Shown: piece after piece, positions 3,824 through 62,843 of the stretch | How the letters are laid out: every line of letters begins with the position of its first letter | Numbering within the stretch: position 1 is the first letter of the stretch | From: a virus | DNA: 64,000 nt | Reading direction: 5' to 3' (one strand) | Virus record (IMG/VR): IMGVR_UViG_3300046313_000683 | Coordinates: 45,811-109,810 of that record | Notes under the pieces: generated by a model | What the model saw: the letters and a program-made list of their open reading frames with translations, nothing else | The model's database searches: none | Told to the model about the DNA's origin: nothing | Made by a program: the position numbers and the translations under genes

Positions 3824-3892
3824 ACTATTATTTATGCAGTTGATTTGATTGACATAAATATATTTATACAAAATTGAAAATATACCATCAAA

Positions 3893-12292: not shown

Positions 12293-12492
12293 CAGGTTAG
12301 TTGGCGTTTTAATGCTCGCTTACCATCAACGATAGGAGAGTCGTAGAAAATCTGGATCTGCAGCGGGAGCCTTTTGTATAGATCTGCTGGGCAGGATAGC
12401 GGAAGACGGAAGCCCCGAGGGAAAGCTTTCATCCACCCGTAGTTCTTCACTGGACAAAAGCCTAGTGCAGCAAGTTCAGGATAAGTTAGCAC
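12289..12492 (-). CDS. Small hypothetical protein
   Basis: 67 aa with a GTG start at 12492 that overlaps the TAG of the upstream gene (TAGTG), a typical coupled start. The protein is basic near its C-terminus, with a WMKAFPRGFRLPL segment; no family recognised. It is the last gene of the small operon 14331-12289. Confidence 0.5.
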   Translation of the reverse strand: MLTYPELAALGFCPVKNYGWMKAFPRGFRLPLSCPADLYKRLPLQIQIFYDSPIVDGKRALKRQLTC

Positions 12493-13826
12493 TACAGAAC
12501 AAACCCCATACGTTCACCGCCTTTGAATCCACGACCCTTGTGCCGGATTCCAACTTTAGAAGCAGTCATTGAACCAGGTTGGGTTACCGCGATTTTATCC
12601 AATGCACCAGTGCGTGGATTAATTTGCATTTTTACTACGCCCACATCCATTAATGCTTCATTGACGTATTTGTCAAAATTTATAGAACCTTGAGCGACAC
12701 ACTGGTTAACGAACTTCTCAATAGTAGTCATCTGCATGTTGTAGTTATCTTCAATTGACCAGTCAGATTTTGCTGGAAGCCATGTGGATCGCTTGTTTTT
12801 GAACACTCGTTCGCTAGCAAATTGAGCAATTTCCGAAGCGAACTTACTACTATTAAATAAGTTTGTCAGTTCGGCTGGTGCTTGCTTTACAGTAGCAGTT
12901 GCAAGAGTTGACATGAGTTGATATGAAAATTCCATCTGATTGAGTTTTTGTCCTCCAAGTGCTTTAATCACATCACCACACTTTAGTGTATTTGCTACTG
13001 TGGCTGCACGCTTTGAAGAAAAACCTACCCCACCAACTTTAAAATCAATCATAGCCTCATTGTCGCGTAATGGAATTTCTACCTTTCCACTCTTTCCAAC
13101 TACAAATGGGCCAATCATCTCCAAGAAATCATTGTTTAGCGCATTGTATGATGGCACGCTATTCGAAATTCCTGTTTGGTCATACGTTGGTTGAACAGCA
13201 CTTGCATTCCTTCCATCGATCACCAATGTCGTTAAATATGCTTTAACTTCCTTAGACAGATCAGAACACTGTTCAATTCCAGCGATCAACTCTGTCTTAT
13301 ACGCAGTCAATGTAGGGAACACAGCGAATCCGTTTTCAACTTTACCTCGGCCTGCTAAAACTTTCTGAGGCTTTAGTGACACAAACAACTTCTTTTGAAG
13401 TGGCTTAGCAATATCACTAACGCTTACAAGATACACGCTTTGGTGACCATCATCGTACACTGCAATTTTAGTGCGAGTACTGTATTCAACGTCAACGAAA
13501 CTTGGGTCATTACCTGGAGTGCTGCGCTGTTGGTATGCTTTTGACGCAGCATTTGCTGGATCAGTAGCTCCAACACGCAAATCATACCGCGAACCAGGTG
13601 CCATATCTGCTGGAGACGGTGTTGGTAGCAATGGATACTCACCAATAACTAGCACTTCGTGTCCACCGCTCAGTTTTTTTCCTGGGATTGCTTTATTGGT
13701 ATTAGCGTCATATAACTGTGCCCCCTTCGGTTTGATAGTCGTCATTACCCGACGACCCTTGTAGTACTTGTCCCACATATCCACGCCGGAAGACGCTTCA
13801 ATTAAATAGTCAATAAATCTCATCAT
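12492..13826 (-). CDS. Large hypothetical phage protein with capsid-targeting-like N-terminus
   Basis: About 444 aa; ATG at 13826 (or 13823), giving MMRFIDYLIEASS. The ORF extends upstream but that part overlaps the preceding gene. N-terminus YLIE-A fits the LxE cleavage pattern of T4-type prohead proteases. The rest is mixed alpha/beta with a Ser/Lys-rich basic C-terminus (KGRGFKGGERM). No enzymatic motif recognised. Downstream of a P-loop ATPase gene in one operon. A virion-internal protein is the best guess. Confidence 0.6.
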   Translation of the reverse strand: MMRFIDYLIEASSGVDMWDKYYKGRRVMTTIKPKGAQLYDANTNKAIPGKKLSGGHEVLVIGEYPLLPTPSPADMAPGSRYDLRVGATDPANAASKAYQQRSTPGNDPSFVDVEYSTRTKIAVYDDGHQSVYLVSVSDIAKPLQKKLFVSLKPQKVLAGRGKVENGFAVFPTLTAYKTELIAGIEQCSDLSKEVKAYLTTLVIDGRNASAVQPTYDQTGISNSVPSYNALNNDFLEMIGPFVVGKSGKVEIPLRDNEAMIDFKVGGVGFSSKRAATVANTLKCGDVIKALGGQKLNQMEFSYQLMSTLATATVKQAPAELTNLFNSSKFASEIAQFASERVFKNKRSTWLPAKSDWSIEDNYNMQMTTIEKFVNQCVAQGSINFDKYVNEALMDVGVVKMQINPRTGALDKIAVTQPGSMTASKVGIRHKGRGFKGGERMGFVL

Positions 13827-14724: not shown

Positions 14725-15342
14725 CTATATCAAGTCAGTAGTGTAGGTTGAGAAAAACTCAAGCACAATGTCTCGACTATATCCTCCTGGGAGAATATCA
14801 CAATGAGTTAGTTTCCAATGGAGTTGTTCTAGTAATACTGCTATCGTATCGTCATATACTAAATCCATATCAGTATATTGTTTAACTTCACCTGTGCGTT
14901 TATTAATCGTTTTAACTCGAGGCATCGTGTCTGGTCGAGCGATAATTGCTTTTAGTAGTGATTGTCCACCGGAAAATATTGGATTATCTATCAACACGGG
15001 GCGATTGAGTATCAGCCGCATCGCGTTTATCAGCACAACAATTGCTGCAGTGTTACGATACTTTGGTAGAATCTGGATGTTTTTTAGAGGATATGCAGAT
15101 ATTCCATATTCAGTTTTCTCAGCATCAAGCAAAACCCACCCCAACAATGCTTCATCTCTAGCACGAAACAATGCGAAAGCGAATTCTTTTTGCAGGACTT
15201 TGAATTTACCGCCTTCGACAGGATGAGCAACGCTACCATCTTGTATCCATTTTGCAAATCCATCCACTTGCTCCTGAGGAAACTCAGGATGTTGTGTAGT
15301 GGTTTTGTACGCCATTTCATCAAGAATATGTTGGAGTTTCAT
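14725..15342 (-). CDS. GNAT-like phage protein
   Basis: 205 aa, ATG 15342, starting MKLQHILDEMA. The centre (GWVLLDAEKTEYGISAYPL...ILPKYRNTAAIVVLINAMRLIL) has the strand-turn-helix look of a GNAT acetyltransferase, with the helix that would hold the acetyl-CoA pyrophosphate, but the classic Q/RxxGxG/A is degenerate. The N-terminus ILDE-M fits the LxE pattern shared with several proteins here. Two other GNAT-like genes are at 43.5 and 51.1 kb. Substrate unknown. Confidence 0.5.
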   Translation of the reverse strand: MKLQHILDEMAYKTTTQHPEFPQEQVDGFAKWIQDGSVAHPVEGGKFKVLQKEFAFALFRARDEALLGWVLLDAEKTEYGISAYPLKNIQILPKYRNTAAIVVLINAMRLILNRPVLIDNPIFSGGQSLLKAIIARPDTMPRVKTINKRTGEVKQYTDMDLVYDDTIAVLLEQLHWKLTHCDILPGGYSRDIVLEFFSTYTTDLI

Positions 15343-18075: not shown

Positions 18076-20640
18076 TTACACCGATACGATGTTAGCACTG
18101 TTGACAATTGCTAGTCGATCAGACGCTGCAACTTGTGTCAATGTAATACCTTGTACAGTATTAGCATCTGACAATGGCAAGTACGCAATGCAACCACCTT
18201 TAGGGTAACGACCTCTGTATGCTTCTTTAACTTGATCAGGTGTTAGTGCAGACTTCCATGCACCAAATTTAGAGATCTCATAACCAACAGCGTTGACACC
18301 AGCATTGTCTGGACGACCCAACAGAGAGAATGAGTATGGATTTTGTCCTACGAAGTTAGTATTAGCGGAACCGATTAGCACGCCGTCAATGTATAAACTA
18401 GCTACGTCAACAGATTGACCTGCTTGGTATTCGTAAGTTATAACAACGTGGTGAGGAAGCAAATCTGCTGCACTAACTGCGGAAGCTACGATTGTGCCAC
18501 CAGTTGCTAGTTCATACAACTCACTACCAGTTGCTTGACGGAGGCGCAATGGAGCACCAGTGGTACCGTTGTTGTTTGCAGCAAAAAAGGCGAGTCCATT
18601 CGCAGCTCCACTACGCTTCTTAATCCAGAACGCAACTGAATAGCATCCAATTGGCTCAACAGACAATGAACTAATTGTATAACCGTTATTGACGTTATCT
18701 AGTGGAATATTGATAGGGGATGCAACGTTGTCATTAGTACTCAAATATACGCCACTGCTTGGATAGTCAACATCCCAGTACTGGAATCCGTTTGGTATTC
18801 TATCAAACATCGATAGCGGTATTGCACGATACATTGCTTCGTGACCAAGATTATTTGGGTGGACGCCGTCAGGTGTCATGAATGTTTTGTAATTACCTGT
18901 GCCGTCATCAACAGTTCCCATCAACAAGATATAAGGGATATTTGATGTTTGTAGCTCTTTGTCAACAAATTTTGCAAATGCGTAGTCGTTACCGTTATAT
19001 TCGTTACGAGAAAATTGACCTGCAATTATTGCTTTTGCACCAATCTGCCTGCACATATCAACCAACTTGTATATGTTTTTAAGGTATGTTTGCACTCCAA
19101 CAAATTTACCATTATTGAAGTTGACGTTACCCGAAATACCTTCGTTTGCAATTGTCAATCCGATCATTACAACATCAGGTTTGAAAGGAGCAATATCAGT
19201 ATAGAATCTATCGATCACATTTTGCGACGCATTTCCTGAAATGCCTGTATTCGCAACAGTCCAACCACGTGCAGTCATTGCAGTTGTTAGTTTACCGGCG
19301 TAAGAGTTGGCGTACGATGATGCACCAGTACCAGCTATCGTGGATGAGCCAGTAAGCATCAAGCGCTTCGAGTATGCAGTAGGAGTAGCTGCAGCACTAG
19401 CAATACTACTAATAACGCCACTGCCGTCAATTGCAATTGTGGTACCATCAACTTTAACACCACCTGATATTGTCGTAGAAGCTGTTGGCAGGGTGTACGA
19501 AGTAGATGGGGTAGTCCACACAAATCCACCAGCACTGGAATTTGCAGCAGTGCTCCATGCTAGTACTTTTCCGTCGTGGTTTGCCTGGGCGTCAGCTTTG
19601 GAAATATCCAAGCCAATGCCAGGTATTCTGAATCTATTGACGGAGGTAGTAGTACCTAGTGTTACTTCACCACTTACAGTGGCGCTGGAAGGTTCTGCAT
19701 TAGTACCGATAATAATGTTATCGTATCCTGAAGTCAAGGTTGTACCACTCCATGCACCGATTGCAATATTGAAATGCTGATTGTATGTACTACCATCATT
19801 ACGCAGTGCTTTTAGTGAATCTTGACCAATAGCGATGTTTTGGCTGCCGTCGCGCAACTGATCGAGTGCTAATACGCCAACCGCGATGTTACCATAGCCT
19901 CCTGTAATATTTGCACCAGATTGAGCACCAAAACCGACGTTTCGATTTCCAGTGGTCAATGCTTTTAGCGAGTACGCGCCAAAACCGGAGTTTTGATTGC
20001 CCGATATCAAACCACGTAAGCTATTGTGACCAAGACCAGCATTATCATTACCGGATGTTATTGAATACAGTGAATATACACCAACAGATGTGTTGCGATC
20101 GCCTGTTAGTGTGGTAGAAACAGTAGCTTGAGCGAATTTGCCGATTCCAGTATTTTCCAAGTTGTCTACAGATCCGTACACAGCACCGCGTGCTGTAGGA
20201 GTTGCAGCACTACCACCTATTACGCTAATAACCCCACTACCATTAATGTCGATAGTCGAACCGTCTACTTTCACACCACCTAGCACCAATGTGGAAGAAG
20301 TTGGTAGAGTGTACACATCAGGAATCGTTGGCGCACCAGTTAAATCAGCATATGCACCAGATGTTGCTACAGTAGCTAGAGACGGTGCACCAGTTAAATC
20401 AGCATATGCACCAGATGTTGCTACAGTAGCTAGAGACGGTGTTGGGCTGAACGGGGACCAGACGGCTGGAGAAGTGCTTGTTAAAATGTAAAATGTGTTA
20501 TCGGCGGTGACCCGGCAAACCTTACCGATATCACCTGCTGCCACCGATAGCGCGTCACGAGCTGACGTAGATGTTGCTGTAAACGCTACTACGCTATGAA
20601 CGTCTGCGCCCGTTATCGAACTGTGTTGAAAAGTTGCCAT
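18076..20640 (-). CDS. Tail fibre/spike with SGNH esterase and LamG-like domains
   Basis: About 854 aa from ATG 20640 (AAAGGG upstream); longer starts are unlikely. The first part has tandem repeats SLATVATSGAYADLTGAP and two copies of a TLPT..T..GGVKVDGTTI block, typical of collagen-like or beta-helical fibre stalks. The middle (about 425-625) is an SGNH/GDSL hydrolase: GSST block, NTGISGN, GLTIANEG and DGVHPNNLGH. The end is LamG/concanavalin-like (IDGVLIGS). The esterase probably deacetylates surface polysaccharide during adsorption. Confidence 0.85.
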   Translation of the reverse strand: MATFQHSSITGADVHSVVAFTATSTSARDALSVAAGDIGKVCRVTADNTFYILTSTSPAVWSPFSPTPSLATVATSGAYADLTGAPSLATVATSGAYADLTGAPTIPDVYTLPTSSTLVLGGVKVDGSTIDINGSGVISVIGGSAATPTARGAVYGSVDNLENTGIGKFAQATVSTTLTGDRNTSVGVYSLYSITSGNDNAGLGHNSLRGLISGNQNSGFGAYSLKALTTGNRNVGFGAQSGANITGGYGNIAVGVLALDQLRDGSQNIAIGQDSLKALRNDGSTYNQHFNIAIGAWSGTTLTSGYDNIIIGTNAEPSSATVSGEVTLGTTTSVNRFRIPGIGLDISKADAQANHDGKVLAWSTAANSSAGGFVWTTPSTSYTLPTASTTISGGVKVDGTTIAIDGSGVISSIASAAATPTAYSKRLMLTGSSTIAGTGASSYANSYAGKLTTAMTARGWTVANTGISGNASQNVIDRFYTDIAPFKPDVVMIGLTIANEGISGNVNFNNGKFVGVQTYLKNIYKLVDMCRQIGAKAIIAGQFSRNEYNGNDYAFAKFVDKELQTSNIPYILLMGTVDDGTGNYKTFMTPDGVHPNNLGHEAMYRAIPLSMFDRIPNGFQYWDVDYPSSGVYLSTNDNVASPINIPLDNVNNGYTISSLSVEPIGCYSVAFWIKKRSGAANGLAFFAANNNGTTGAPLRLRQATGSELYELATGGTIVASAVSAADLLPHHVVITYEYQAGQSVDVASLYIDGVLIGSANTNFVGQNPYSFSLLGRPDNAGVNAVGYEISKFGAWKSALTPDQVKEAYRGRYPKGGCIAYLPLSDANTVQGITLTQVAASDRLAIVNSANIVSV

Positions 20641-20753
20641 ATTAAAATACCCTTTATTGTTACCACTGTATTTAGTAGCAATTAGGTCCACGTCATGTCA
20701 ATTTTGTGCGCTTGCATGTATTTTACTATCAACTCAGATCAAAGTTATGCTTC

Positions 20754-21344
20754 TCATTCTGCGAATTTCAAGATGCTACATATATGCTGGACTTCCAGGC
20801 GAGTTAATTCAGGAGTAAACCGAATACACATTAGTAGCCGCCCAGGTCTAGTTGATACCCCCATGTGGGGCGTGTTAGCATTAATGAACATAGGTGTAGA
20901 ACACTCCACCCTATCTATCTCGTGCTCAACCATTCCAGGTGGAGCAATTAAATTTCTACCTGAAGGTGATAGTACAAGCGGTGAATCAGCTGCATAAAAA
21001 GCTGTGTAGGTACCATTACAATCACTTAGGGGAAGGTTGAACGAATACTTTATTGAATTATTTGGGGAATCGATGTGAAGTATATTTGATACAGTGATAT
21101 TTGGAGTACTATTGATACTCTTCATAAAGCGGTTGAGTAGCCCAATAGATTTCAAGAACGAGTACAACAATGGAGACAGTGGCAACATCTCATGAGCATA
21201 TAAGGTAATATACAATTGGGTGCGCTGGACACTAGTGTAACTGCGTGTCAATACATCAAAGGTTGATTTGAGTTCCGCAGCTAGTGCTTCATAGTTTGGA
21301 ATCGTTACTCGTTGGTATAGCCAGGTCACACAATGCCCAATCAA
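20754..21344 (-). CDS. 2OG-Fe(II) oxygenase-like protein
   Basis: About 196 aa; the far start is a TTG, a GTG at 21329 is equally possible. Contains an HxD (LHIDSP) followed about 80 residues later by NTPHMGVSTRPGRLLMCIRF, where His and Arg sit as in 2-oxoglutarate/Fe(II) dioxygenase double-stranded beta-helix folds found in phages. The C-terminus is one gene away from a GNAT and a PP-loop gene. Substrate unknown; it may act with its neighbours on a small molecule, peptide or lipid. Confidence 0.45.
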   Translation of the reverse strand: MIGHCVTWLYQRVTIPNYEALAAELKSTFDVLTRSYTSVQRTQLYITLYAHEMLPLSPLLYSFLKSIGLLNRFMKSINSTPNITVSNILHIDSPNNSIKYSFNLPLSDCNGTYTAFYAADSPLVLSPSGRNLIAPPGMVEHEIDRVECSTPMFINANTPHMGVSTRPGRLLMCIRFTPELTRLEVQHICSILKFAE

Positions 21345-24925: not shown

Positions 24926-26290
24926 TTAGTTATTTTCAGATTTCCAAATCACACACGCTTGTTTAACCTCTTCTGAGGATATGTTTTTAAATGTAGAGCG
25001 TAATTCCTTACTTAATTCAAATGCCGATGTCGCACTTGATGTGTGGACAGCATGTTGGATTTGCTTGGATAGCTTTTTATTGGCGTTGTTTAATTGATCT
25101 GGCTTGATAGACGTATCGACAATTTTCTTTGGAGCATCTTTCGCAGCAGAGTCAGCTTTTTTTGCATCAGCGTCATCTTCGCCATCATCATTTTCCATTG
25201 ATTTAGCAAGTGCTTTGGAAGATACTTTTTTCTTATCGTCATCTTCGTCACTATCATCAACTTTTTTAGCAGCAGGTTTAGAAATAGCTGTAGTTTTTGC
25301 TGGACGGCCGCGCTTACCAGGAACTTTTTCTTCCTTCGGAGGATTTTTACGAGGACGGCCACGAGTTGCTTCTTCCAACTCCTCACTGTCGTCACTAGGA
25401 ATCGCACTAAATTCACAATCTGCATATGCGTCGTTATTGCGATTTTGTTTAATCCATGCGTTGCACTCACTGCGAGTACCAGTGAAATAGGTATCACTAC
25501 GAGGAGCATTCTCGTCTGTCACGTCATATTGATCTGAAGCACTTTCCTGGACAGATTCAAATGGAGATTGACCAGCACCTTCACCGTAGGTCATTTCAAT
25601 ATCCTCATAGACATTGAGCATGATTTGCTCTACGTCGTCGTCACCATGTAAGCCAGTGCCTTCTGCATGGCTGTCGTACATGCGTTGAATAATCTTTGCA
25701 GCTTGACGTTGCATTGGACCTTGCGGACGAGTCATCACGTCATACGCATCAATATCATCTGCAAGGATTAGGTGAAACACCGTCTCAACAGATTGCTCTT
25801 GGCCAGGAGTACCAAGTACAGATTGATCGCCGATGGCCTCTTCGAGTTCTTCACCACCATCTTCCGTCACACCGTCACTCTCCGAAACCTTCTTGCGCAT
25901 TTCAGCTTTGGTACACTTGTACTTTTTCTTAAACTCTGAACCACTCAACTCGTCAAAATCAAGATCAAGTTCAGCCAATTTACCTTCAGTCAGCTCGACA
26001 TCTGCGCTTTCACCTAAATGAGAACGAAGTTGACCAACAACTGCCATTGTAACTTGCTCGAGATCGCCCCTATTCAACCGAGTCTCGAGAGTAGCATCAA
26101 GATACGAACGAGCTTGCTGAGTGATCATCGCCATTGGAGTATCGAGCAAATCGTCGCCAAATGTTTTCTTAAGGTGTTGTGCAGCCATACTAGAGATAAA
26201 GTCCAGTTTCTCCTGATCACGCAAAATGGCTTGTGCAGCCATTTTCGATTTTGAAGCAACAGCCTCAACAAGTGTTTGTAATAATTTCAT
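24926..26290 (-). CDS. Large acidic protein with AT-hook-like motifs and capsid-targeting-like start
   Basis: 454 aa, ATG 26290 (AAAGGA upstream). N-terminus MKLLQTLVEAVASK, then helical, then long acidic low-complexity linkers (EELEEA, DDSDEDDDKKK) with two AT-hook-type RGRPRKN and KRGRPAK motifs, and a helical C-terminal domain. AT-hooks bind minor grooves of AT-rich DNA. The TLVE-A site suggests packaging in the head with proteolytic trimming, as for T4 internal proteins. A DNA-condensing or ejected head protein is the best inference. Confidence 0.6.
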   Translation of the reverse strand: MKLLQTLVEAVASKSKMAAQAILRDQEKLDFISSMAAQHLKKTFGDDLLDTPMAMITQQARSYLDATLETRLNRGDLEQVTMAVVGQLRSHLGESADVELTEGKLAELDLDFDELSGSEFKKKYKCTKAEMRKKVSESDGVTEDGGEELEEAIGDQSVLGTPGQEQSVETVFHLILADDIDAYDVMTRPQGPMQRQAAKIIQRMYDSHAEGTGLHGDDDVEQIMLNVYEDIEMTYGEGAGQSPFESVQESASDQYDVTDENAPRSDTYFTGTRSECNAWIKQNRNNDAYADCEFSAIPSDDSEELEEATRGRPRKNPPKEEKVPGKRGRPAKTTAISKPAAKKVDDSDEDDDKKKVSSKALAKSMENDDGEDDADAKKADSAAKDAPKKIVDTSIKPDQLNNANKKLSKQIQHAVHTSSATSAFELSKELRSTFKNISSEEVKQACVIWKSENN

Positions 26291-37218: not shown

Positions 37219-39363
37219 TCAAACAACAGTGTGGTGACGCCACTGTTGGCGAACTTTGTACCAGATTTCATGCAGCTGCGGCTTCAGTATATCACTAGCT
37301 GTAATGTTGCTGTTGGATAGTGGGTTAATAATCTCATAGATGTGAGATTCGCAATCATTCCGTGCCGAGCGTCCAATAACTTGCGATAGCAGTGGCAAGC
37401 TTTGTGTAGTACGCCCAATAATCACACTCTCACAACCCTTGACATCTGTACCTTCACCAATTTTATTGCATGACACTACAAACTGCACTGCACCTTTTTC
37501 GAAATTAGCCAGTTCTTCGTTCAGTGTTTTTTCCTTGATATTGACAAGAGCAACTGCTGTCAGTCCCAGCTTTTCGAGACGAGAGGTGACGTCAATCGCT
37601 TCCTGCTTTGTGCGGACGAATACCATCGTCTGACCGAGCACACTTTGTTTGAGGTTGATGATATCCATCACCATGTCAACGTGCTCACGGGCTGGGGAGT
37701 CAATGAATGAATATAGGTGACTATCCGCAAGGTAACCAGCTGCGACAGCGTCTTCACGAGAGATCGTTTCGACGAATTTCGAGAATTTGCACAATACTCC
37801 ATCCGCTCTCAACGGAGTTGCTGTAAGACCAATGATCGGTTTGGCGCTAATTTGCTCTAGCTTATATTGAAATGTCAGGCAACTCTCGTGATGACACTCA
37901 TCCAAAATGGCAATATCCCAACAGAGATCCTTTGGTACGTCACTGAACGTAGATAGTGTATTAAACACGACAACACTGTCGCAAGTACCTGTGAACCCCA
38001 CTTGAAATGGCGTATTTTTGTGGTCTTTGATCACGGTAATGCCTGCAGCGCTGTATGAGTCTTCAGCTTGCTTCAGTAAACGATGCCTATGAGCAATCAT
38101 TAGGACGCGGAGAGGTTGACCAACTGGAATACCAAGAATGGTACGTAATTCGGATGCGACCATGATAATACCAGCGGTAAGTGTTTTACCGCTATTGTGG
38201 GTTACGAAAAAATTTCCCATAACATAGAGATTATCCCCATCAACAGTAAACCCATAATATTGTTCAATACCTACAGGCACGACCTCAAAACTCGTTTTAA
38301 GAACATCCTTACGCTGTGCTCGTGCAGTTAATTGTTTCCTCGCTAATCGAGTGGGGATGAGTTCTTGACCCGCACCTGATATATGCATTGTGTAGCATAT
38401 GTAATTATTCTTACGAGCATATACTTTAATATTGCACCGAAAGCCCAAACTACGAGCCACAAATTGCACATCTTGCGCTAGTTGTTTGCTAACTGTTGTA
38501 TACTCTACTGTGTTTTTTGAGACAGAACCGTCTGTATCAATCAGTCCAGCAAGCAACTGCAAGCGCTGTTCTACACTACCAATTTTGTAAACAGGTGGAA
38601 TGAATTTATGATGAGAAGTGACCCCAAATAAGCTTAACTGTTTAAGCTCATTCCTCCAAAGATTATCTCCCACACGACCTGTACCAGCAGGGAAATACAC
38701 AGACGCTTTATTTGGAGTATGCATTTCACGTTTTATCGTGCGGAGTTTGTGTAGATCATTAAATGTTGTCAACTCTGTTGCAATTTCAGCATCCATGGTA
38801 GTAATGCTAACACCCGAGCGACTACTTCCATCCCCGAGGTATACTCCCATTAAATATGCTGGGATTTTATGATTTTGTTCAGTAAATTCTAATTTGTTAG
38901 CTAGATATGCTTTATGCAATCGTTTTTTGTCAGTAGACCACCTCAAATAATCAGTAACAGTAACATTAACAACTTCAGTTCCTGTTAAAAAACAAGGGCT
39001 TTGTCGCCATTTACTCGTACCTTCATTAACGGTTTTTAGCGAAAGTACGTGACCACCATTGACTCTAAACACGTCACCAGACTTAGGTACGATATCATAC
39101 ATCTGCTCAGTACCTCGAGCCAACTGCAATACATTACGAGGCTGATTGTCAGGGCCCATCAATCTATCACCCACTACAACATCCTGCACAGCTTTGATTG
39201 ACCCGTCATACATTAAAATTTTCGTATCAACTGCATGGCAACCTGTCGGTAACACAACACAGATTCGACTGTGACCATCTTTGAGTGCTTGCAATACCTC
39301 ATTGCGAGCTAGTACCTGATATACACGCGCGTCACGACCACCAAATTGGACTGGGGTTGTCAT
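37219..39363 (-). CDS. SF2 helicase (UvsW/RAD-like) interrupted by an intein
   Basis: 714-codon precursor, ATG 39363 with AAGGA upstream. The N-extein is the first 41 residues, ending VVLPTG; the C-extein starts SGKTLTAG, so splicing rebuilds the Walker A LPTGSGKT. The mature helicase (about 365 aa) has Walker B ILDECHHES (DECH box), LTATP motif III, and C-terminal motif VI QVIGRSARN. UvsW-type helicases handle recombination and origin R-loops in T4. The precursor cannot bind ATP properly until the intein is removed. Confidence 0.9.
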   Translation of the reverse strand: MTTPVQFGGRDARVYQVLARNEVLQALKDGHSRICVVLPTGCHAVDTKILMYDGSIKAVQDVVVGDRLMGPDNQPRNVLQLARGTEQMYDIVPKSGDVFRVNGGHVLSLKTVNEGTSKWRQSPCFLTGTEVVNVTVTDYLRWSTDKKRLHKAYLANKLEFTEQNHKIPAYLMGVYLGDGSSRSGVSITTMDAEIATELTTFNDLHKLRTIKREMHTPNKASVYFPAGTGRVGDNLWRNELKQLSLFGVTSHHKFIPPVYKIGSVEQRLQLLAGLIDTDGSVSKNTVEYTTVSKQLAQDVQFVARSLGFRCNIKVYARKNNYICYTMHISGAGQELIPTRLARKQLTARAQRKDVLKTSFEVVPVGIEQYYGFTVDGDNLYVMGNFFVTHNSGKTLTAGIIMVASELRTILGIPVGQPLRVLMIAHRHRLLKQAEDSYSAAGITVIKDHKNTPFQVGFTGTCDSVVVFNTLSTFSDVPKDLCWDIAILDECHHESCLTFQYKLEQISAKPIIGLTATPLRADGVLCKFSKFVETISREDAVAAGYLADSHLYSFIDSPAREHVDMVMDIINLKQSVLGQTMVFVRTKQEAIDVTSRLEKLGLTAVALVNIKEKTLNEELANFEKGAVQFVVSCNKIGEGTDVKGCESVIIGRTTQSLPLLSQVIGRSARNDCESHIYEIINPLSNSNITASDILKPQLHEIWYKVRQQWRHHTVV
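38194..39240 (-). other. Intein with LAGLIDADG homing endonuclease
   Basis: 349 residues (42-390 of the precursor). First residue Cys, ends VTHN with the next extein residue Ser: a standard class 1 intein. Block B-like GHVLSL and two LAGLIDADG helices (LMGVYLGDG near residue 171, LAGLIDTDG near 271) indicate an active-type endonuclease. Insertion exactly in the P-loop is typical for inteins in ATPases. Confidence 0.92.
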
Positions 39364-42479: not shown

Positions 42480-42737
42480 TTACATTACTATACCAGTAGA
42501 ATTAGTTTCAATCGATACACTATCTAACAGCGACTTGACTGCGGCGTTGAGCTCATCCCATTCAGCTGGATCAAACTTGACAACACCATTTTCTGAAGTA
42601 TCATCACTTTGTTGCAATTCAATGAAGTACCCACCAGCTTCGTCATTCAAACGAACGTGTGTAACACCTTCACCAAAGATAGGATTAACCCCCTCTGCGT
42701 GGACTGAGATTGCAATTATCGTTTGTTTGTATTTCAT
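42480..42737 (-). CDS. Small hypothetical protein
   Basis: 85 aa from ATG 42737, 1 nt beyond the upstream stop. Beta-rich (MKYKQTIIAISVHAEGVNPI, GYFIELQQSD), acidic C-terminal helix. Last gene of a three-gene block 43094-42480. Unknown function. The 260 bp to its left (42221-42479) hold no gene that I can support. Confidence 0.55.
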   Translation of the reverse strand: MKYKQTIIAISVHAEGVNPIFGEGVTHVRLNDEAGGYFIELQQSDDTSENGVVKFDPAEWDELNAAVKSLLDSVSIETNSTGIVM

Positions 42738-42738
42738 G

Positions 42739-42915
42739 TTAATCTTTAAAGTGAAAGTTTTCAAATTCTTCAAGTGTTACTGAAGCAATCAAGTGCTTGG
42801 TGAAGTAATACGCATCTTTTTGACCGTTATTATCAGTTAGCGCCCACAACCGTAGGCTGCGGTCATACCACAGTGTGAAGTCGTATTTTGCGACAAGAGC
42901 TTTGTATTTGTTCAT
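42739..42915 (-). CDS. Small hypothetical protein
   Basis: 58 aa from ATG 42915, overlapping the TAA of the preceding frame-shifted gene (TAATATG). Starts MNKYKALVAKYDFTLWYDRSLR; looks like a short PepSY/YcfA-type alpha-beta unit but not recognised. Confidence 0.55.
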   Translation of the reverse strand: MNKYKALVAKYDFTLWYDRSLRLWALTDNNGQKDAYYFTKHLIASVTLEEFENFHFKD

Positions 42916-42916
42916 A

Positions 42917-43094
42917 TTAAGCAATCAGAGTTTCCCCGATGATGAACTCAATGCGACGAACTTTTGGTGTAGCACCGATCAATTGACCTTTGTAGAAAAT
43001 GCTCCAGCACTTCCCAAACAGTTTAGCGGTATATGCCCACGGTGATGTGGCGGAAACCTTTGTAAGCACAAGTGTGAATAGTGATTTTTGTCAT
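42917..43094 (-). pseudogene. Small gene split by a +1 frameshift
   Basis: ATG 43094 gives MTKITIHTCAYKGFRHIT and then stops within 6 codons; shifting forward one base at about 43040 (ACC-G-TGG) continues as WAYTAKLFGKCWSIFYKGQL and ends at TAA 42917-42919, right where the next gene starts. Promoter and gene order are intact. Either a +1 programmed frameshift or a recent single-base insertion. Confidence 0.6.
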
Positions 43095-43431: not shown

Positions 43432-43505
43432 TGGTGGTCAGTGCAAGAATCGAACTTGCGACAGTGGCGTATGAAACCGCAGTTATACCATTTAACTAAC
43501 TGACC
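43432..43505 (-). tRNA. tRNA-Met or Ile2 (CAT), CCA encoded
   Basis: Acceptor GGTCAGT/ACTGACC, D stem GTTA/TAAC-like with GG, anticodon loop TTCATAC (CAT), T arm GCAAG-TTCGATT-CTTGC, A and CCA. Overlaps the 3' end of the GNAT-like gene by a few bases. Confidence 0.82.
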
Positions 43506-44131
43506 ATGTGTTTGTACCGAATCGATAGTGGCACCGAGGATATCACGAGACGGCGAGCCTGGTGTTTGTTATCATTGCCCCAAATTTCTTTACTTGATGC
43601 AAGCGCTTGATACTCCCGGTCGTTATTGATTTTGGTAATTTCACGAGGAGGAATGAGACTAATGTAATACACATTCAACCCCATTCGAAGTGCTTCGAGA
43701 ATTCGCTTGTCCCAAAATCGCTGACCATCTTCCGTCTGCATCGAATCAGTGATCATCACTTTATAGTGTTGCAACAAACTATTGAAAAAGATTTCTTTCG
43801 CTAGTCCCTCTGTTTCAAACACTTTGGTGTTGCGCCACACCATCACTTGTTGAGCACACTGGTGGCCAATAAACGTATTGTTCTGGAGTGTAAATCGTAC
43901 AGCGTACACAACTTGCTTTGTGTCATTATCAATCAATGCGTAGGCGCGAGGAGCTTCGTACAGTGTGTAATCGCCATACTGCTTAATAGCTACAGCTTTT
44001 TTCGTCGCAAAAAACTGATCAACAAAATGTTTATTTTTTGTAGGAGTTGTTAGATCAAATTCCGTTGGATATACATTTTGCGGCATTTCAAACAGCTCTT
44101 GTACTTCTGGAAACATTTCAGAAAATTTCAT
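43496..44131 (-). CDS. GNAT-like phage protein with capsid-targeting-like start
   Basis: 211 aa from ATG 44131 (MKFSEMFPEVQELFEMP; LFE-M fits the LxE site). The centre (YALIDNDTKQVVYAVRF, QVMVWRNTKVFETEGLAKEIFFNSL) follows the GNAT strand-loop-helix order found in phage head- or tail-associated acetyltransferase-like proteins. Substrate unknown. Its stop lies at the edge of tRNA-Met. Confidence 0.55.
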   Translation of the reverse strand: MKFSEMFPEVQELFEMPQNVYPTEFDLTTPTKNKHFVDQFFATKKAVAIKQYGDYTLYEAPRAYALIDNDTKQVVYAVRFTLQNNTFIGHQCAQQVMVWRNTKVFETEGLAKEIFFNSLLQHYKVMITDSMQTEDGQRFWDKRILEALRMGLNVYYISLIPPREITKINNDREYQALASSKEIWGNDNKHQARRLVISSVPLSIRYKHMVS

Positions 44132-50636: not shown

Positions 50637-51125
50637 TTAGTGAAGGGGTTCGTAGTATTCACTACTTAGTGTCAGTTTTGGTAAGGTATCGAGGTCTAGT
50701 TGATCGAGATCACCTTCGTGGTCCTGAGCAAGTGTGATGTGTGGCAAGTAATCGTCAAAATCATAACTCGCACCTTGGTCCATGTAATGCTGCCAACGAT
50801 TATTGCATTGAGTACTCTTGACTTTTAGTACAAGGAATCGCTTATCTTTATGCTGACCAAATACCGCAAACCCTATCGGCTTGACAACCCAATCGGAAAT
50901 ATCATCAATCACATCATCTTGTTTGATTGGAAACAGTTTTGATGAGTAGCACAAGGTGATGTGCAAGTTATCGAAAAAGTCTTTTGATACAGCCACCTTA
51001 TTTGCTTTGCACCACGTCCTGAGCTCAGCAGTCGTCTCCTTAGAAACTTTTGCAGCTACGTAGTGACCCGACTTGTGGCGGGTGTCTTCGATTTTTTCAA
51101 GAAGTGTGCGAAAGAAATTGAACAT
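50637..51125 (-). CDS. acb1: Acb1-like anti-CBASS 2H phosphodiesterase
   Basis: 162 aa from ATG 51125; the ORF is open further upstream but that overlaps the next gene. Two HxT motifs, H55-I-T57 in NLHITLCYS and H129-I-T131 in YLPHITLAQD, plus GHYVAAKVSKET and GASYDFDDY, the order seen in T4 Acb1 (gene 57B). Acb1 cleaves cyclic di- and trinucleotides made by CBASS defence, blocking abortive infection. The first 12 residues MFNFFRTLLEKI are identical to the start of the neighbouring gene and look like a capsid-targeting peptide. Confidence 0.85.
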   Translation of the reverse strand: MFNFFRTLLEKIEDTRHKSGHYVAAKVSKETTAELRTWCKANKVAVSKDFFDNLHITLCYSSKLFPIKQDDVIDDISDWVVKPIGFAVFGQHKDKRFLVLKVKSTQCNNRWQHYMDQGASYDFDDYLPHITLAQDHEGDLDQLDLDTLPKLTLSSEYYEPLH

Positions 51126-51129
51126 ATTG

Positions 51130-51795
51130 TTAGAGTGGATCTGACCAAAACATAATCTTACCTTCAAATACAATTGGAGTTGGGTCACACCAAATATCTT
51201 TATGGTACCAGGTTTTCATATTATGAGATTCGAAATATTTAGGCTGTGCTTGCCAATACTTGACCTCATCAGATGTACTTTCTAGTACAACTTTCCATCC
51301 TGTGCTGTGTTCTCCGTAGAAATCCATCACCTTCAACGGATCGTACAGTACTTGTTGATCACCTTTCTGCCAATACACACGTCTAAATTGCCGATACACT
51401 TTTTTTAACAATTCTTTCATTTTTTCACTATGGTCATCTCCGATTATAACTTGCTGCATCCCCTGATTGCGTAGGAGAAACATAAAGAACATTACAGTAA
51501 GGTTTTGTCCACGAAGTACCGGATTAACATACGCACTAACTACTTCTGTATCACGCAATTGATAATATGCAAATATTTTTTGACGATCGGGCGTCAATAC
51601 AAAGAAAGTGGTGCCAAGTGCATCAAATTTATATACAGCAATCCGTTCAATATCTCCACAGTGTTCTGCTTTTGGTAAAGCTGCGTCTACCATAGGTAAA
51701 AAAATTGATAACGACTCGTGTGAAGGTGATAGTTTAGTTTCTTCTACTTTGATTTTTTCAAGAAGTGTGCGAAAGAAATTGAACATTGCAAACAT
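51130..51795 (-). CDS. GNAT-like protein with the same N-terminus as Acb1
   Basis: 221 aa, ATG 51795 (or 51786). Residues MFNFFRTLLEKI duplicate the Acb1 start. The core IAVYKFDALGTTFFVL, VVSAYVNPVLRGQNLTVMFFMFLLRNQGM fits the acetyl-CoA loop of GNAT-like phage proteins. C-terminal 90 residues are extra. The two adjacent genes may have gained the leader by local duplication. Confidence 0.6.
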   Translation of the reverse strand: MFAMFNFFRTLLEKIKVEETKLSPSHESLSIFLPMVDAALPKAEHCGDIERIAVYKFDALGTTFFVLTPDRQKIFAYYQLRDTEVVSAYVNPVLRGQNLTVMFFMFLLRNQGMQQVIIGDDHSEKMKELLKKVYRQFRRVYWQKGDQQVLYDPLKVMDFYGEHSTGWKVVLESTSDEVKYWQAQPKYFESHNMKTWYHKDIWCDPTPIVFEGKIMFWSDPL

Positions 51796-52391
51796 TATGC
51801 TAGTTGGGTATTTAGCGCAGTTTTATACAGATTTCTGACCAATCGAACTGCCTTCAATGAAGCTCGAGCATCTTCCAAAGCATTGTGAGTATCGCGATCA
51901 ATGCCAACTTGTTCAAACAACTCATTTGAATTATTTGCATCTAGTAGCACCTTACCTAGCGTATAGCTATCAACACAATGACCAGACAATTGAATAGCTG
52001 CTTCGTTGTGTTCGAAGAACTTGATTAAGAAGTGGCGATCAAACGTGGATACATTATGTCCACCAAGTGTAATTGCACGAGATGGATCAAAGTGCTTCAC
52101 TAGAAACTCTGTAAATTGGACGAAACCCTCGGAATACTCAACACCATGTTCATCCAAGTGAGCTTTTGATAGACCGTGAATGCGCTCGGCACTGTCACTC
52201 CAAGCACAACCATCAATATATTTGAACTCAGTATAGAAAGAATCAAGCTCTTTGAGTGTAGTCGCATTAACGACAATCGCACCAAGCGATGTCATTTGAA
52301 ATTTCCCATTTCCCGAGCGATCCATCATGTTATTTTGGTCGTAACCAGATGTCTCTACATCGACAAAAAGGATTTTAGTTTTATTTGTCAT
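51795..52391 (-). CDS. DEDD 3'-5' exonuclease (DnaQ/RNase T type)
   Basis: 198 aa, ATG 52391. ExoI FVDVETSG, ExoII GHNVSTFDRHFL and ExoIII HNALEDARASL are intact (DEDDh). Could be a stand-alone proofreading, DexA-like or RNA exonuclease. Proofreading is already present in the polymerase N-part, so a repair or RNA-processing role is likely; tRNA 3' trimming is possible but only inferred. Confidence 0.88.
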   Translation of the reverse strand: MTNKTKILFVDVETSGYDQNNMMDRSGNGKFQMTSLGAIVVNATTLKELDSFYTEFKYIDGCAWSDSAERIHGLSKAHLDEHGVEYSEGFVQFTEFLVKHFDPSRAITLGGHNVSTFDRHFLIKFFEHNEAAIQLSGHCVDSYTLGKVLLDANNSNELFEQVGIDRDTHNALEDARASLKAVRLVRNLYKTALNTQLA

Positions 52392-54257: not shown

Positions 54258-54692
54258 TTAGCTCGTCAAACCTTTAATGTTGACAAACACTAATGTATTC
54301 TTGGGGTCGCCAACTTCCCAACGCTCCACTGTTTGAGAACCGTCACCTGATGAAGTCGATCCTTTAGGAATGTCTGTACCAGCTAAGATTGCATCATATG
54401 TTTTCATTGTCCAAGTATCGTGCTGGTTGAGTTTGAAGATCCACAACTCATCATACAGATTGTTTTCATTTTTACGCTTGTACACGAGATGTGCTTCTGG
54501 CACAGTGCGAATGTCCCCTTGACGGTCTGGGTCACCCTGTTCCTGCTCTTCGTCGCCAAACTCAGGGTCTCTATCTGACGGCCGATGGTCAGCAAACTCG
54601 TCACCAAGTTGTTGGTCAGCAGCTACGGTTTGATCGTCGGTGTCGCGAGTGTAGTTGACGAATCCTGCTTCAAAAATGGCGCTGAGTTTCAT
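54258..54692 (-). CDS. Acidic protein with capsid-targeting-like start
   Basis: 144 aa from ATG 54692, giving MKLSAIFEAGFVNYTRD; IFE-A fits the prohead protease site. Acidic linker DPEFGDEEQEQGDPD, then a beta-rich domain (HLVYKRKNENNLYDELWIF). Possibly head-internal. An in-frame start at 54749 is less likely. Confidence 0.6.
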   Translation of the reverse strand: MKLSAIFEAGFVNYTRDTDDQTVAADQQLGDEFADHRPSDRDPEFGDEEQEQGDPDRQGDIRTVPEAHLVYKRKNENNLYDELWIFKLNQHDTWTMKTYDAILAGTDIPKGSTSSGDGSQTVERWEVGDPKNTLVFVNIKGLTS

Positions 54693-58514: not shown

Positions 58515-59687
58515 TTAAAATTCAAATTCTTCTTCAATCGCTTGCATGTGCCTAGTTGGTACGTGCCGTGGGATCGAATCAAACATATTGTGCAGCATAT
58601 TATCTACAAGTTTCTTCGAGTGGGTGATACGATCAATTAGTGGTACAAAGTCATCAGCAAACCATTGTGGAATCTCTTCCGTATCAGTTGGGAGTGCAAT
58701 TGACTTGAACATTCGTCCGTCGTGCTCAAACTCATACTTAAAATTGAACACTTTAATCTTCATACCACTGCTGATTTGCAACGATTGATTATCCTTGTAG
58801 CGTTCTCTAAACTCATTGTACAGCAATGCTGCTGAAGTATGTCCAGGAATGCGGGTGCGTGGGTTATTGCGAAATTCTTCAGTGTATAATTCAATCTTCT
58901 TAATCCCCTTTGGAAGACCGATCTCCATTAGTGGCACATCATCAATGATCTTATCGCGGTATGCTACAATGTATTCATCAAGCTCTTTGGCTGGTACACC
59001 TTTGAGTACATCCATTACACACTTCTTTAAAAAAGCTTTGATTGGACGAGGGGTAGTAGTCTTCTTTGCATCAAGACCCATTAACTTCAAATCATCTTTG
59101 GGAATTCCCTCCTTATCAACTACGTGCATTGCGTATCGTTTTTTCGATACGAAGAATGCAGCAGACGCAAACAACTCTCTACCAGTTTTGATCTTATCCG
59201 AGAACTCAGGCTGTAGCAGAAATTGCTCCATCATAAATTTCGGAAAACTTTTATTAACAAGCAGTGCTATGTTGTCTGCAATTTTTATTTTTTCTTGCAA
59301 CGTCTCACGTCCAGTTAAAACATGCTTTAACGTAAGTATGGAACTATCCGTATCTCCATAAATAATTGATGGGCTTGCCGCTTCCCCGCGGATAGCTCGC
59401 GGATCTTCATCATCGACAATTGGGTCAATGTTATAGTCACCATCCAATACTTCACAACACTTGCGAATTTGATGTTGCAATACGTGTCTCCCCGTACCAG
59501 TTGTACTCTCTCCAGCAACCTTTGCATAGAATTTAAAATTTTGGTTTAATTGAGCTCCGTAAAACGAGTTTTGCAAAATTTTAAATGCATATGATTGTGA
59601 TTCACAATAATCAATCTCTGCTGTAAGTGCAGTATATCTGTCATATTCAACATCTGTCAACTCCACTCCCTTCACTATATGCGTCAT
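58515..59687 (-). CDS. DNA polymerase B, C-terminal part (split gene)
   Basis: 390 aa from ATG 59687, which forms ATGA with the end of the homing endonuclease gene. Contains motif B QSYAFKILQNSFYGAQ, motif C IYGDTDSS with the catalytic Asp pair, and the thumb. Lacks exonuclease and motif A, which lie on the gene at 60936-62843. Both chains must associate to form the enzyme, as known for split gene 43 of some T4-type Aeromonas phages. Confidence 0.92.
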   Translation of the reverse strand: MTHIVKGVELTDVEYDRYTALTAEIDYCESQSYAFKILQNSFYGAQLNQNFKFYAKVAGESTTGTGRHVLQHQIRKCCEVLDGDYNIDPIVDDEDPRAIRGEAASPSIIYGDTDSSILTLKHVLTGRETLQEKIKIADNIALLVNKSFPKFMMEQFLLQPEFSDKIKTGRELFASAAFFVSKKRYAMHVVDKEGIPKDDLKLMGLDAKKTTTPRPIKAFLKKCVMDVLKGVPAKELDEYIVAYRDKIIDDVPLMEIGLPKGIKKIELYTEEFRNNPRTRIPGHTSAALLYNEFRERYKDNQSLQISSGMKIKVFNFKYEFEHDGRMFKSIALPTDTEEIPQWFADDFVPLIDRITHSKKLVDNMLHNMFDSIPRHVPTRHMQAIEEEFEF

Positions 59688-61012
59688 ATTGCTGTCCCAC
59701 AATCGTATAATTCTAACACAACCCTATCATCTCTACCCACTACAGCAATATCTCGCGTTTGTATTATTTTAGGCGGAAGTATTTTCGCAACAGTTGAGTG
59801 TGAACTATGGTAGTATCGCAAATTCCCCTTGTTCGTATCAACATTTTCTTTATTAATAGCAATCATAATTTGCTTTTTACACTGATCAAGTGTATCTGTT
59901 GCGTCAAATAGTGTCAACAATGTGAATCCGTTATTTGCACAACTTTTCCACTTATTTAAATGGTAGGTAGGTGTCATTCGTCTTAAATGTGGTAAATCTC
60001 CTACACTGTGAAAGTAGTAACTACCATACTCAATTGCAATGTTATATGTGGGTAGAACTATGTCCAACTCCCGCGGTTTAATTACTTGCCTATTATTAAC
60101 AAGCACTTCTACTCCTTGCTGCTCTAACCACTCTACCAATATTCGCTGCTGTGAACTCAACGCATATCGTTGGTTCTGTATACCGTGTTTTTTTGCCCAA
60201 TATGACATTGTATACGCAACTGCAATATTATTCTCTGCGCGCATTTGTTGGAACGATTTTTGTTGTGTGATGTGCTGATCGTAAAACCAATCTTTATTAG
60301 ACAGACAATCTCGCATTGCTTTTGTCATAGTTTTTGATTTTTTCTCACTTTGTATCCACGACGAACTGGAGCAACTTGGACCACAGTATGTACAGTATTG
60401 TGTAGTTCTTGGATCCCACTTTGTTGGTTTACCACACTCCACGCACGATGGCAGCTCTACATCAGGGTGCATAACGTGCCATACGCGCTGCAGTATCGTC
60501 ACCCCAAGTTTATCATTGCTTTTGTTAGTTGGCACACAACAATTAGTCGCAGCTACAAGCGCCCCATACAACTGTGGATTGCGAAGTGGTAAAGTGCGGA
60601 GTTGTTGTGGAGACCAATCTTTTATTTCTTCCCTAATTTCATTTACCGATAGCACTACTTCAGTGGGACAATATTTATTGCGACAAGCAGTGTTGCAAAA
60701 CTCATTAAACCTATTGATCTGCCCACTGGCTGAACCTGCTTTGGTAAATGTAGTTATTTTCCCACAAGTTTTACAAGTTGGTAGCGTAGTACGGTTTTCA
60801 ACAATCGCAAGTAATTTTTCACGATACGGATATGTAGCAAATACAGGCGATACTAACACATCGATTTGATTTCTTATATCTTCTCGCAACGTTGTAGTGT
60901 TAACTCGCTGATTAGTTCTTATTAATTCAATATAGTCAGCTAGCGTTCTTGTAGCTCTGTTGTGTGCCGACAGTTGTCTTTGTTGTTTTATTTTTTCGTA
61001 ATTTTGCTGCAT
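59684..61012 (-). CDS. Homing endonuclease splitting the DNA polymerase gene
   Basis: 442 aa, ATG 61012. Two or three Cys4 units (CKTCGK...CNTAC; CVECGK...CTYCGPSC) are followed by helical DNA-binding parts and a Vsr/EDxHD-type core: ELDIVLPTYNIAIEYGSYYFHS with the acidic metal ligands. Similar layout to the plus-strand enzyme at 44.7 kb. It overlaps polymerase N by 77 nt and polymerase C by 4 nt, so it replaced the junction rather than inserting as a self-splicing element; no intron or intein features are seen. Confidence 0.85.
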   Translation of the reverse strand: MQQNYEKIKQQRQLSAHNRATRTLADYIELIRTNQRVNTTTLREDIRNQIDVLVSPVFATYPYREKLLAIVENRTTLPTCKTCGKITTFTKAGSASGQINRFNEFCNTACRNKYCPTEVVLSVNEIREEIKDWSPQQLRTLPLRNPQLYGALVAATNCCVPTNKSNDKLGVTILQRVWHVMHPDVELPSCVECGKPTKWDPRTTQYCTYCGPSCSSSSWIQSEKKSKTMTKAMRDCLSNKDWFYDQHITQQKSFQQMRAENNIAVAYTMSYWAKKHGIQNQRYALSSQQRILVEWLEQQGVEVLVNNRQVIKPRELDIVLPTYNIAIEYGSYYFHSVGDLPHLRRMTPTYHLNKWKSCANNGFTLLTLFDATDTLDQCKKQIMIAINKENVDTNKGNLRYYHSSHSTVAKILPPKIIQTRDIAVVGRDDRVVLELYDCGTAI

Positions 61013-62843
61013 TTAGTAATTCCTCAAGTTCCTTCTTCGCAATTTTTGAACGAGCTTGTGCAGATTTGCGCTGTGTAAACCACGTTTCCAAAATAGTTGG
61101 AACAATTCCAGGTGCATCTTGGTTGTAGACCGTACCGTATCCGGATATAGCATATTTATGCATCCTTAGCCAAGTGTTCCAATCTTTTGCCATTTTAGTA
61201 ATTTTTTCACCTGAGGCGAGTGTGATTGTTAAATAACTATCTGTATTAGCAATGATCTCTACCCGATCTCGATTATCATTAATAAACTGCCCAATGTATT
61301 TTTCCGGCGAAATGTTTATCGCCTTCATGCAAGATGGATACAATCCTGTTACGTCAATCAGAAATAGGTCTTTATGTATACCTTTTTGTGGAACTAATAC
61401 GTACGCTCCCTGAGCTTGTCCTTGCTCGTCTAGTACCACAGTATCCGGAACTCGTACATTCAATTCGTGCCAACAAAAGTTAGCTACAGCCATCTCCGCT
61501 TTTCGTACGGTACCCATGACATGCTTCATTTGGCAAGTACTGTAGTGCATCATCCAATTACCAAGTTCAATAAACTTGTACTTTTTATCGAGCTCGCACA
61601 AAATCTCCGTATCTCTGCAATTGTAACGAATGAACTTACAAAAGTTCTCGTGATACAAACTATGCAGAGTACCTTCGTAGTCCAGCTTTTTGAACTTGTC
61701 CCCGAGGTGGTCTTGCGCAACAGACTCTAGGTTCCAACTATCACGATCTTCAACGGTGAACTTTTTAAACAGTTCCAAGTAGTCAATTGTGATACGACCA
61801 TCGAACTGAACCTGCTTTTGCATACGGAAGAATATTTCACGCTCAGTGTAATACGGCTTCTTACCTTTTGGAAACGACAGCATCTGGAACCACTCTTCAC
61901 CCAGCACGATTTGAACACGTTGTGCAAAGTATGGGTCATCAAACATAGACGAGTTATAACCTGATAGTACGTCAGTATTTTGAATCTCCTCGACGGAGTA
62001 CGCGAGTAGTTCAGCTTCATTACGGCAGAATACGATTTTGTACTCACTATGAACGTCTTCAAATAGAGACCAGTTGAAGTTCTTTTCACAATCTTCAAAC
62101 TGCCAGGTCTTTGGCGGGACGCAGTAACAGACATAACGATCTTCCCACGCGTGATAAAATGCAATAGAGTTGATTGGAGCTTCTGCTTCATTCGTCGAAC
62201 TATAATGGTCAAACTCATCGTACAACAGTGGCGAATTAGTCAGTGGACGAAATGGTTGAGTTGGTTTCTCCTTGTACTCGTACTCATGGTGGTCTTGGGA
62301 ATCGATTTTTCGCAGGAGACGCAGTGGCATATCGGTAATTGCACCATCGTACAAACTGCGGACAGATATTAACTGGTCTGGATTGCGAGAGCGAGTGATA
62401 GCCTCAACCTCAATATCGTAGAATGTAACATTTAGGACCGGAAGTTCTGCTTGGTAGTAATTATTGGATAGGACTTTCAATTCTGCAGGAATATCACTCT
62501 CATACAGACGGACGAATAGTGGGACACTGCCAGTAAAGTTACGGAACTCTTTTGATTTTGAGAATTTGAGCTTGTATAGCGGCTCATTGTACATTGACAG
62601 GTATGTTTCTGTCGTGTCAATTGCAGGAGCACCTGCGCCGAGAAACTGCTTGAGAACAGTTATCTCATCCATATCACCACTATCTACAGCTTCTTTTAAT
62701 TTGGTGCGGCATAATTTCCAATCGAGCACACGGACGTAGCACTCATTAGGTGCATTGTAGGTTTTGATGTTGAGATCACCGCGATTGGTACGTTGCTCCC
62801 ACACAATAACTTTATCGAACTGTTTGCTTGCAGATATGTACAT
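60936..62843 (-). CDS. DNA polymerase B, N-terminal part (split gene)
   Basis: 635 aa, ATG 62843. 3'-5' exonuclease motifs FYDIEVEA, LSGYNSSMFDDPYF and YNCRDTEILCEL, and polymerase motif A LIDVTGLYPSCM. It ends in the fingers with AKLRKNKTTK, where the C-terminal ORF takes over with motif B after the endonuclease gene. T4 gp43-like, acting with the clamp at 29.5 kb. Confidence 0.92.
   Translation of the reverse strand: MYISASKQFDKVIVWEQRTNRGDLNIKTYNAPNECYVRVLDWKLCRTKLKEAVDSGDMDEITVLKQFLGAGAPAIDTTETYLSMYNEPLYKLKFSKSKEFRNFTGSVPLFVRLYESDIPAELKVLSNNYYQAELPVLNVTFYDIEVEAITRSRNPDQLISVRSLYDGAITDMPLRLLRKIDSQDHHEYEYKEKPTQPFRPLTNSPLLYDEFDHYSSTNEAEAPINSIAFYHAWEDRYVCYCVPPKTWQFEDCEKNFNWSLFEDVHSEYKIVFCRNEAELLAYSVEEIQNTDVLSGYNSSMFDDPYFAQRVQIVLGEEWFQMLSFPKGKKPYYTEREIFFRMQKQVQFDGRITIDYLELFKKFTVEDRDSWNLESVAQDHLGDKFKKLDYEGTLHSLYHENFCKFIRYNCRDTEILCELDKKYKFIELGNWMMHYSTCQMKHVMGTVRKAEMAVANFCWHELNVRVPDTVVLDEQGQAQGAYVLVPQKGIHKDLFLIDVTGLYPSCMKAINISPEKYIGQFINDNRDRVEIIANTDSYLTITLASGEKITKMAKDWNTWLRMHKYAISGYGTVYNQDAPGIVPTILETWFTQRKSAQARSKIAKKELEELLNAAKLRKNKTTKTTVGTQQSYKNAS

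Follow-up and report, generated by a model that had tools for sequence, protein, structure and literature searches.

The window analysed here, a 64,000-nucleotide stretch of a phage record, encodes a homologue of the anti-CBASS protein Acb1, and this enzyme is perhaps injected together with the phage DNA, because its N-terminus resembles a T4-type head-loading tag. The first 12 codons of the gene are repeated exactly at the start of an orphan gene lying directly upstream. A T4-type capsid-targeting sequence is the best explanation of this leader, and we consider it probable from the comparisons presented below; packaging of the window Acb1 in virions is likely on the same grounds. We infer that the protein would be targeted, cleaved and injected, and that it would benefit the phage early in infection. 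The features discussed are listed in Table 1.

Table 1. Features of the acb1 region (coordinates of the window)
Feature	Position	Strand	Remarks
acb1 homologue	50637..51125	-	162 aa, ATG start; Pfam Acb1 and AlphaFold model
Second HxT motif, H129-I130-T131	50733..50741	-	H129 invariant in alignment A2; H129 and T131 invariant in alignment A1
First HxT motif, H55-I56-T57	50955..50963	-	Invariant in alignments A1 and A2
Acb1 leader, codons 1-12, MFNFFRTLLEKI, putative capsid-targeting sequence	51090..51125	-	36-bp exact repeat
Predicted prohead-protease site L8-L9-E10 / K11 (codons 8-10)	51096..51104	-	[IL]xE as in T4 IPIII FIAE/A; putative
Orphan gene with the same leader, 221 aa	51130..51795	-	No significant family or homologue
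Second leader copy, codons 1-12 of the orphan gene	51751..51786	-	36/36 bp identical
Exonuclease gene, directly upstream of the orphan gene	51795..52391	-	Pfam RNase_T 3.5e-8; 82% identical in G001

Sequence and predicted structure of the Acb1 homologue

The profile search placed the ORF above the cut-off of Pfam PF23474 (E=4.6e-25; 88.5 bits vs 27), and it also matched PHROG 755 (E=7e-29). Its identity with the Acb1 proteins of T4, ZZ1, Ahp1 and RAS14 is 29-33%. In the alignment, H55/T57 and H129/T131 of the window protein line up with H44/T46 and H113/T115 of T4 Acb1, in which H44/T46 have been described as HxT residues (PMC9117128), and G20, Y22, H55, T57, S61 and H129 are invariant across 38 relatives. 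An AlphaFold model built from the alignment of the relatives had a mean pLDDT of 88.6. Its best PDB matches in Foldseek were the FBB1 Acb1 structures 7t27 and 7t26 (E about 1e-9, prob 1.00), whose 2H phosphoesterase fold was found in the model as well.

Judged by sequence and by the model, the ORF 51125-50637 is a genuine Acb1, and the protein should be a 2H phosphodiesterase, predicted to cleave cyclic oligonucleotide alarm signals, with 3'3'-cGAMP, cUA and cAAA as candidate substrates. It shares the family, both HxT motifs and the predicted fold with T4 Acb1 (gp57B) and FBB1 Acb1 (7t26/7t27). The claim of an earlier note that the window encodes an Acb1 homologue with both HxT motifs matching those of T4 was confirmed, as Pfam, the alignment and the model all agree. 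Single-sequence searches with Acb1 gave no match in viral contigs or bacterial genome contigs; the relatives in viral contigs were recovered only by an alignment-based search.

Resemblance of the leader to a capsid-targeting sequence

The first 10 residues of the T4 internal protein IPIII suffice for packaging, with residues 4 and 7 acting in targeting and residues 8 and 10 in processing, and the two functions are separable (PMC9026906). The leaders of T4 IPII and IPIII read MKTYQEFIAE/A (a slash marks the known or presumed cleavage position). The window leader, MFNFFRTLLE/K, agrees with IPIII at positions 4 (F), 8 (L) and 10 (E), whereas its residue 7 is T instead of the aromatic F of IPIII. 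The processing residues L8 and E10 are kept in G001, the closest relative of the window phage (an 82-kb contig with an Acb1 73% identical to that of the window). The residue after the predicted site is K11, in contrast to A, S or T in T4 IPII/IPIII, gp24 and the major capsid proteins (MCPs) of the relatives. Nineteen residues precede the start of the domain at G20-H-Y, with a pLDDT of about 50 in the leader and about 95 in the domain, and in the model the leader is a low-confidence helix (residues 4-13) lying apart from the domain.

G001 has genes for a gp21-type prohead protease, which matches PF03420 (7e-22) and the PHROG for head maturation protease (4e-50), and for a gp23 capsid protein (PF07068, 5e-90) with LNE/S at the maturation position. 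At that capsid position, 8/8 relatives with a readable site have [IL]xE with S or T as the next residue, and PF03420 was present in 9/11 Acb1 contigs tested. The window itself belongs to a 109.8-kb IMG/VR fragment, the DNA polymerase of which is nearest to those of the jumbo phages XacN1 and RAS14 (37-38% identity). As neither head genes among the ORFs nor a match to PF03420 were found in this 109.8-kb record, a prohead protease of the window phage's own can only be inferred.

The earlier note had likened the leader to a capsid-targeting peptide. This likeness stands with respect to the IPIII residues 4, 8 and 10, the gp21 and gp23 of G001 with their [IL]xE site and the enrichment across the Acb1 family described below, and it does not extend to residue 7. 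We propose that once Acb1 is made, the leader, as an amphipathic helix, would direct the enzyme into the prohead core, where cleavage behind LLE10 by a prohead protease of the gp21 type may leave an intact domain starting at G20-H-Y. Packed alongside the genome, Acb1 would then enter the cell as infection begins and could degrade CBASS messengers ahead of any build-up of newly made phage proteins.

Leaders across the Acb1 family

The family was sampled from 80 IMG/VR loci and isolates; with similarity, measured as a sequence-matching ratio, kept below 80%, the sample comprised 44 free-standing Acb1s. An [IL]xE site ending at residues 8-10 was present in 19/44 of these non-redundant proteins and absent from the other 25/44. 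The same site was found in 29/382 neighbouring genes when the first ATG was taken as the start and in 41/382 when any ATG up to codon 40 was allowed (7.6-10.7%), with p=5e-9 and 4e-7, respectively, values that overstate independence because Acb1 leaders are related by descent. The 8-10 interval, motivated by E10 of IPIII, was set after a first scan had placed all matches there; when it was widened to residues 7-18, the comparison of Acb1 with its neighbours weakened to p=1.4e-4 to 1.5e-2. Among 2010 genes of eight related records, [IL]xE at residues 8-10 occurred in 102 (first ATG) and 155 (any ATG).

The ranking of the 22 protein families with at least eight distinct members by the share of [IL]xE leaders put gp2 first (5/8) and Acb1 second (18/40). 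Only these two families exceeded 25%, 18 others stayed at or below 12%, and the MCP had 2/9. The gp2 protein, identified by comparison with T4 gp2, is the DNA end protector, a DNA-end protein of the virion. Leaders of gp2, such as MAIFEIINEAS and MSIFQIDEAE, carry [IL]xE or a similar site (loci L063, L064, L065, L074, L112 and L115; T4 gene 2).

The strict IPIII register was seen in 6/44 Acb1s vs 14/2010 other genes, and MTPFKTFIEEA, MRSFKEFLIEY and MKLFSEFLVEE are perfect IPIII-register leaders on other Acb1s. A tighter leader pattern (20/44 vs 58/1639, p about 1e-16) was set aside, since it had been written after the Acb1 leaders were seen. By these sequence counts, many related phages appear to share the Acb1-leader pattern.

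The counts bear on the possibility that Acb1 is an ordinary intracellular enzyme, the uncut leader helix of which binds a membrane, a partner protein or the replication compartment. Such a role would fit the late onset of T4 Acb1 activity, at about 15 min of infection (PMC9117128), the F/L-rich composition of the leader, which could bind a membrane, the mismatch with IPIII at residue 7, and the start of a short ORF elsewhere in the record (genome 44306-44530), which reads MFLLAYLIEKIKKS. We nevertheless regard it as unlikely, because it predicts neither that [IL]xE is fixed at residues 8-10 and enriched over the neighbouring genes nor that other Acb1s carry leaders in the exact IPIII register.

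Duplication of the leader in an upstream orphan gene

The identity of the first 12 residues of Acb1 with those of the neighbouring protein, already pointed out in the earlier note, proved to be an exact DNA repeat of 36 bp, for which 100 shuffles gave an expected number of copies of 0. In both copies the first base of the repeat is that of the ATG, the flanks are dissimilar and the ribosome-binding region lies outside. The N-terminal pair of Acb1 and the orphan protein scores 57 genome-wide and the next best pair 30, and the two proteins are unrelated after residue 12 (score -36). The exact leader had no match in other viral contigs.

The orphan protein has 218 aa if begun at the ATG at 51786; its start could lie three codons further up (MFA-MFNFF...), where it would overlap the stop of the exonuclease gene. 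No significant relative of it was found in Pfam, PHROG, NCBIfam, phages (tblastn) or IMG/VR, and its fold prediction was uninformative (pLDDT 40). The description of this gene as GNAT-like was therefore dropped, as none of the three profile libraries, the phage tblastn search, the IMG/VR scan and the fold prediction supported it.

In G001, the exonuclease gene is followed directly by acb1 in the same gene order, the leader reads MFTFFRTLLETL and the orphan gene is absent. The DNA between the exonuclease gene and the leader in G001 resembles the DNA preceding the orphan gene in the window. Since G001 lacks the orphan gene, the presence of this gene in the window seems to result from an insertion exactly at the leader/cargo junction, and the simplest history suggested by the two sequences seems to be that the leader was originally that of acb1 and that a cargo gene was inserted together with a second leader copy. 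Having gained the same leader, the orphan protein would travel like Acb1.

Between the window and G001, codons 2-15 differ by six synonymous and four non-synonymous changes (pN/pS 0.18, a small sample); pN/pS is 0.29 for leader codons 2-12 and 0.24 for the Acb1 domain. As far as the few changes compared allow, the Acb1 leader is evolving as a peptide. It is very unlikely that the 36 bp have no peptide function and were copied with the orphan insertion as a scar of recombination or as a translation-start element: the leader is already on the Acb1 of G001, which has no orphan gene, its changes are mostly synonymous, with the lower pN/pS for codons 2-15 than for the domain, and the repeat starts at the ATG without including the ribosome-binding region, even though its exactness, its confinement to codons 1-12 and the lack of the orphan gene in G001 would suit such an origin.

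Comparison with known systems

T4 Acb1 begins MMEFKDFSTGLY (MMEFKDFSTG), with F at positions 4 and 7. It has no predicted gp21 site, as I/L8 and E10 are missing, and by its sequence it might be packaged uncut, or its leader might be a relic. The start of T4 gene 57B (L013:453-911), MMEFKDF, has F4 and F7 as does that of IPI (MKTFKEF). We consider it least probable of all that the window leader targets the head while remaining uncleaved, or that Acb1 acts while heads are assembled or late in infection and not upon injection; targeting by residues 4 and 7 of IPIII is indeed separable from processing by residues 8 and 10 (PMC9026906), and K11 is unlike the residues that follow the other sites (A, S or T), but [IL]xE is kept in both the window phage and G001 and recurs through the Acb1 family.

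The capsid-targeting reading makes the window leader comparable to those of T4 IPI, IPII and IPIII, with an N-terminal propeptide of 10-19 residues, a gp21-type [IL]xE site and varied cargo behind one leader; IPI has an anti-defence role (PMC9026906). The window protein differs from these T4 proteins in that the cargo is a nucleotide-degrading enzyme, the leader is without F7 and packaging is a prediction. T4 Alt is an enzyme that is packaged in the head, trimmed by gp21 and injected (PMC9026906), but it is an ADP-ribosyltransferase, the domain of which is unrelated to Acb1. An injected anti-CBASS protein has already been described, namely Tad1 of the jumbo phage phiKZ, an anti-CBASS/Thoeris protein (PMC13282480). 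Tad1 sequesters the messenger, whereas Acb1 hydrolyses it, and phiKZ belongs to a different phage group.

A wider reading, which we put forward tentatively as a somewhat doubtful one, is that many T4-type and jumbo phages package Acb1 in the head as an internal protein, have it released by the protease and inject it with the genome to clear CBASS messengers at once, and that the leader is a plug-in site for new injected anti-defence proteins; the orphan gene at the leader/cargo junction would be an instance of such a site. If the capsid-targeting reading is true, an enzymatic CBASS inhibitor arrives with the DNA and need not first be produced in the infected cell, which shifts signal removal in time relative to signal synthesis, and the leader with [IL]xE becomes a sequence rule for finding other injected anti-defence proteins among jumbo-phage orphan genes. 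A partial literature search found no paper on the leader of Acb1 or on Acb1 in virions.

Internal-protein genes, portal fusions and further leader-like starts

Genes beginning MKTYQEFIAES or MKSFKEFINEA directly follow acb1 in the loci L074 and L112, and the former (L074) is the exact T4 leader. In T4, ipI adjoins 57B, an adjacency remarked on by the discoverers of Acb1 (PMC9117128).

The Acb1 match lay inside a longer ORF (281-735 aa) in 15/80 loci. The four longer ORFs tested were all portal proteins (Phage_portal_3) with a C-terminal Acb1 domain. These fusions of a portal (PF06381) with a C-terminal Acb1 (PF23474) occur in L067, L069, L101 and L117. They may represent an independent route of the enzyme into the virion; the Acb1 domain is tied to the virion there by its fusion to the portal, in place of a leader, and the phages are different ones. 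The label "portal vertex of the head" given to the Acb1 of ESCO10 was disregarded, because the surrounding labels look displaced (the names terminase, tail sheath and tail tube are given to genes around 57B).

In two proteins of the record, the leader is better conserved against G001 than the rest of the protein: MKLLQTLVEA (11/12 vs 51% overall) and MKLSAIFEAG (11/12 vs 66%). Leader-like starts were seen at eight ORFs of the record, at window positions 24926-26290, 54258-54692, 12492-13823, 14725-15342, 43496-44131 and 7247-7756 and genome positions 20382-21008 and 42507-43007, with the peptides MKLLQTLVEA, MKLSAIFEA, MRFIDYLIEA, MKLQHILDEM, MKFSEMFPE, MKLSDIL, MKLAQLLEM and MKITQILES. The ORF at 43496-44131 has a weak match (1e-4) to a PHROG with the annotation virion structural protein. 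On the basis of these starts, the ORFs are candidate internal head proteins. The virion proteins named in the paper on XacN1 include a chitinase, a lipase and an M23 peptidase.

Other features of the window

The DNA polymerase gene (58515-62843) consists of two ORFs around a 442-aa ORF (59684-61012), while in G001 it is intact (993 aa); the arrangement suggests the insertion of an intron or a homing endonuclease. The Walker A region of a helicase-like 714-aa ORF at 37219-39363 (CHAVDTKILMYDG ... VTHNSGKT) seems to contain an intein, and the G001 counterpart of this ORF has 376 aa. As judged by translations alone, an IS200/IS605-like pair is formed by a TnpB-like ORF and a short transposase-like ORF (2549-3970 and 3893-4195).
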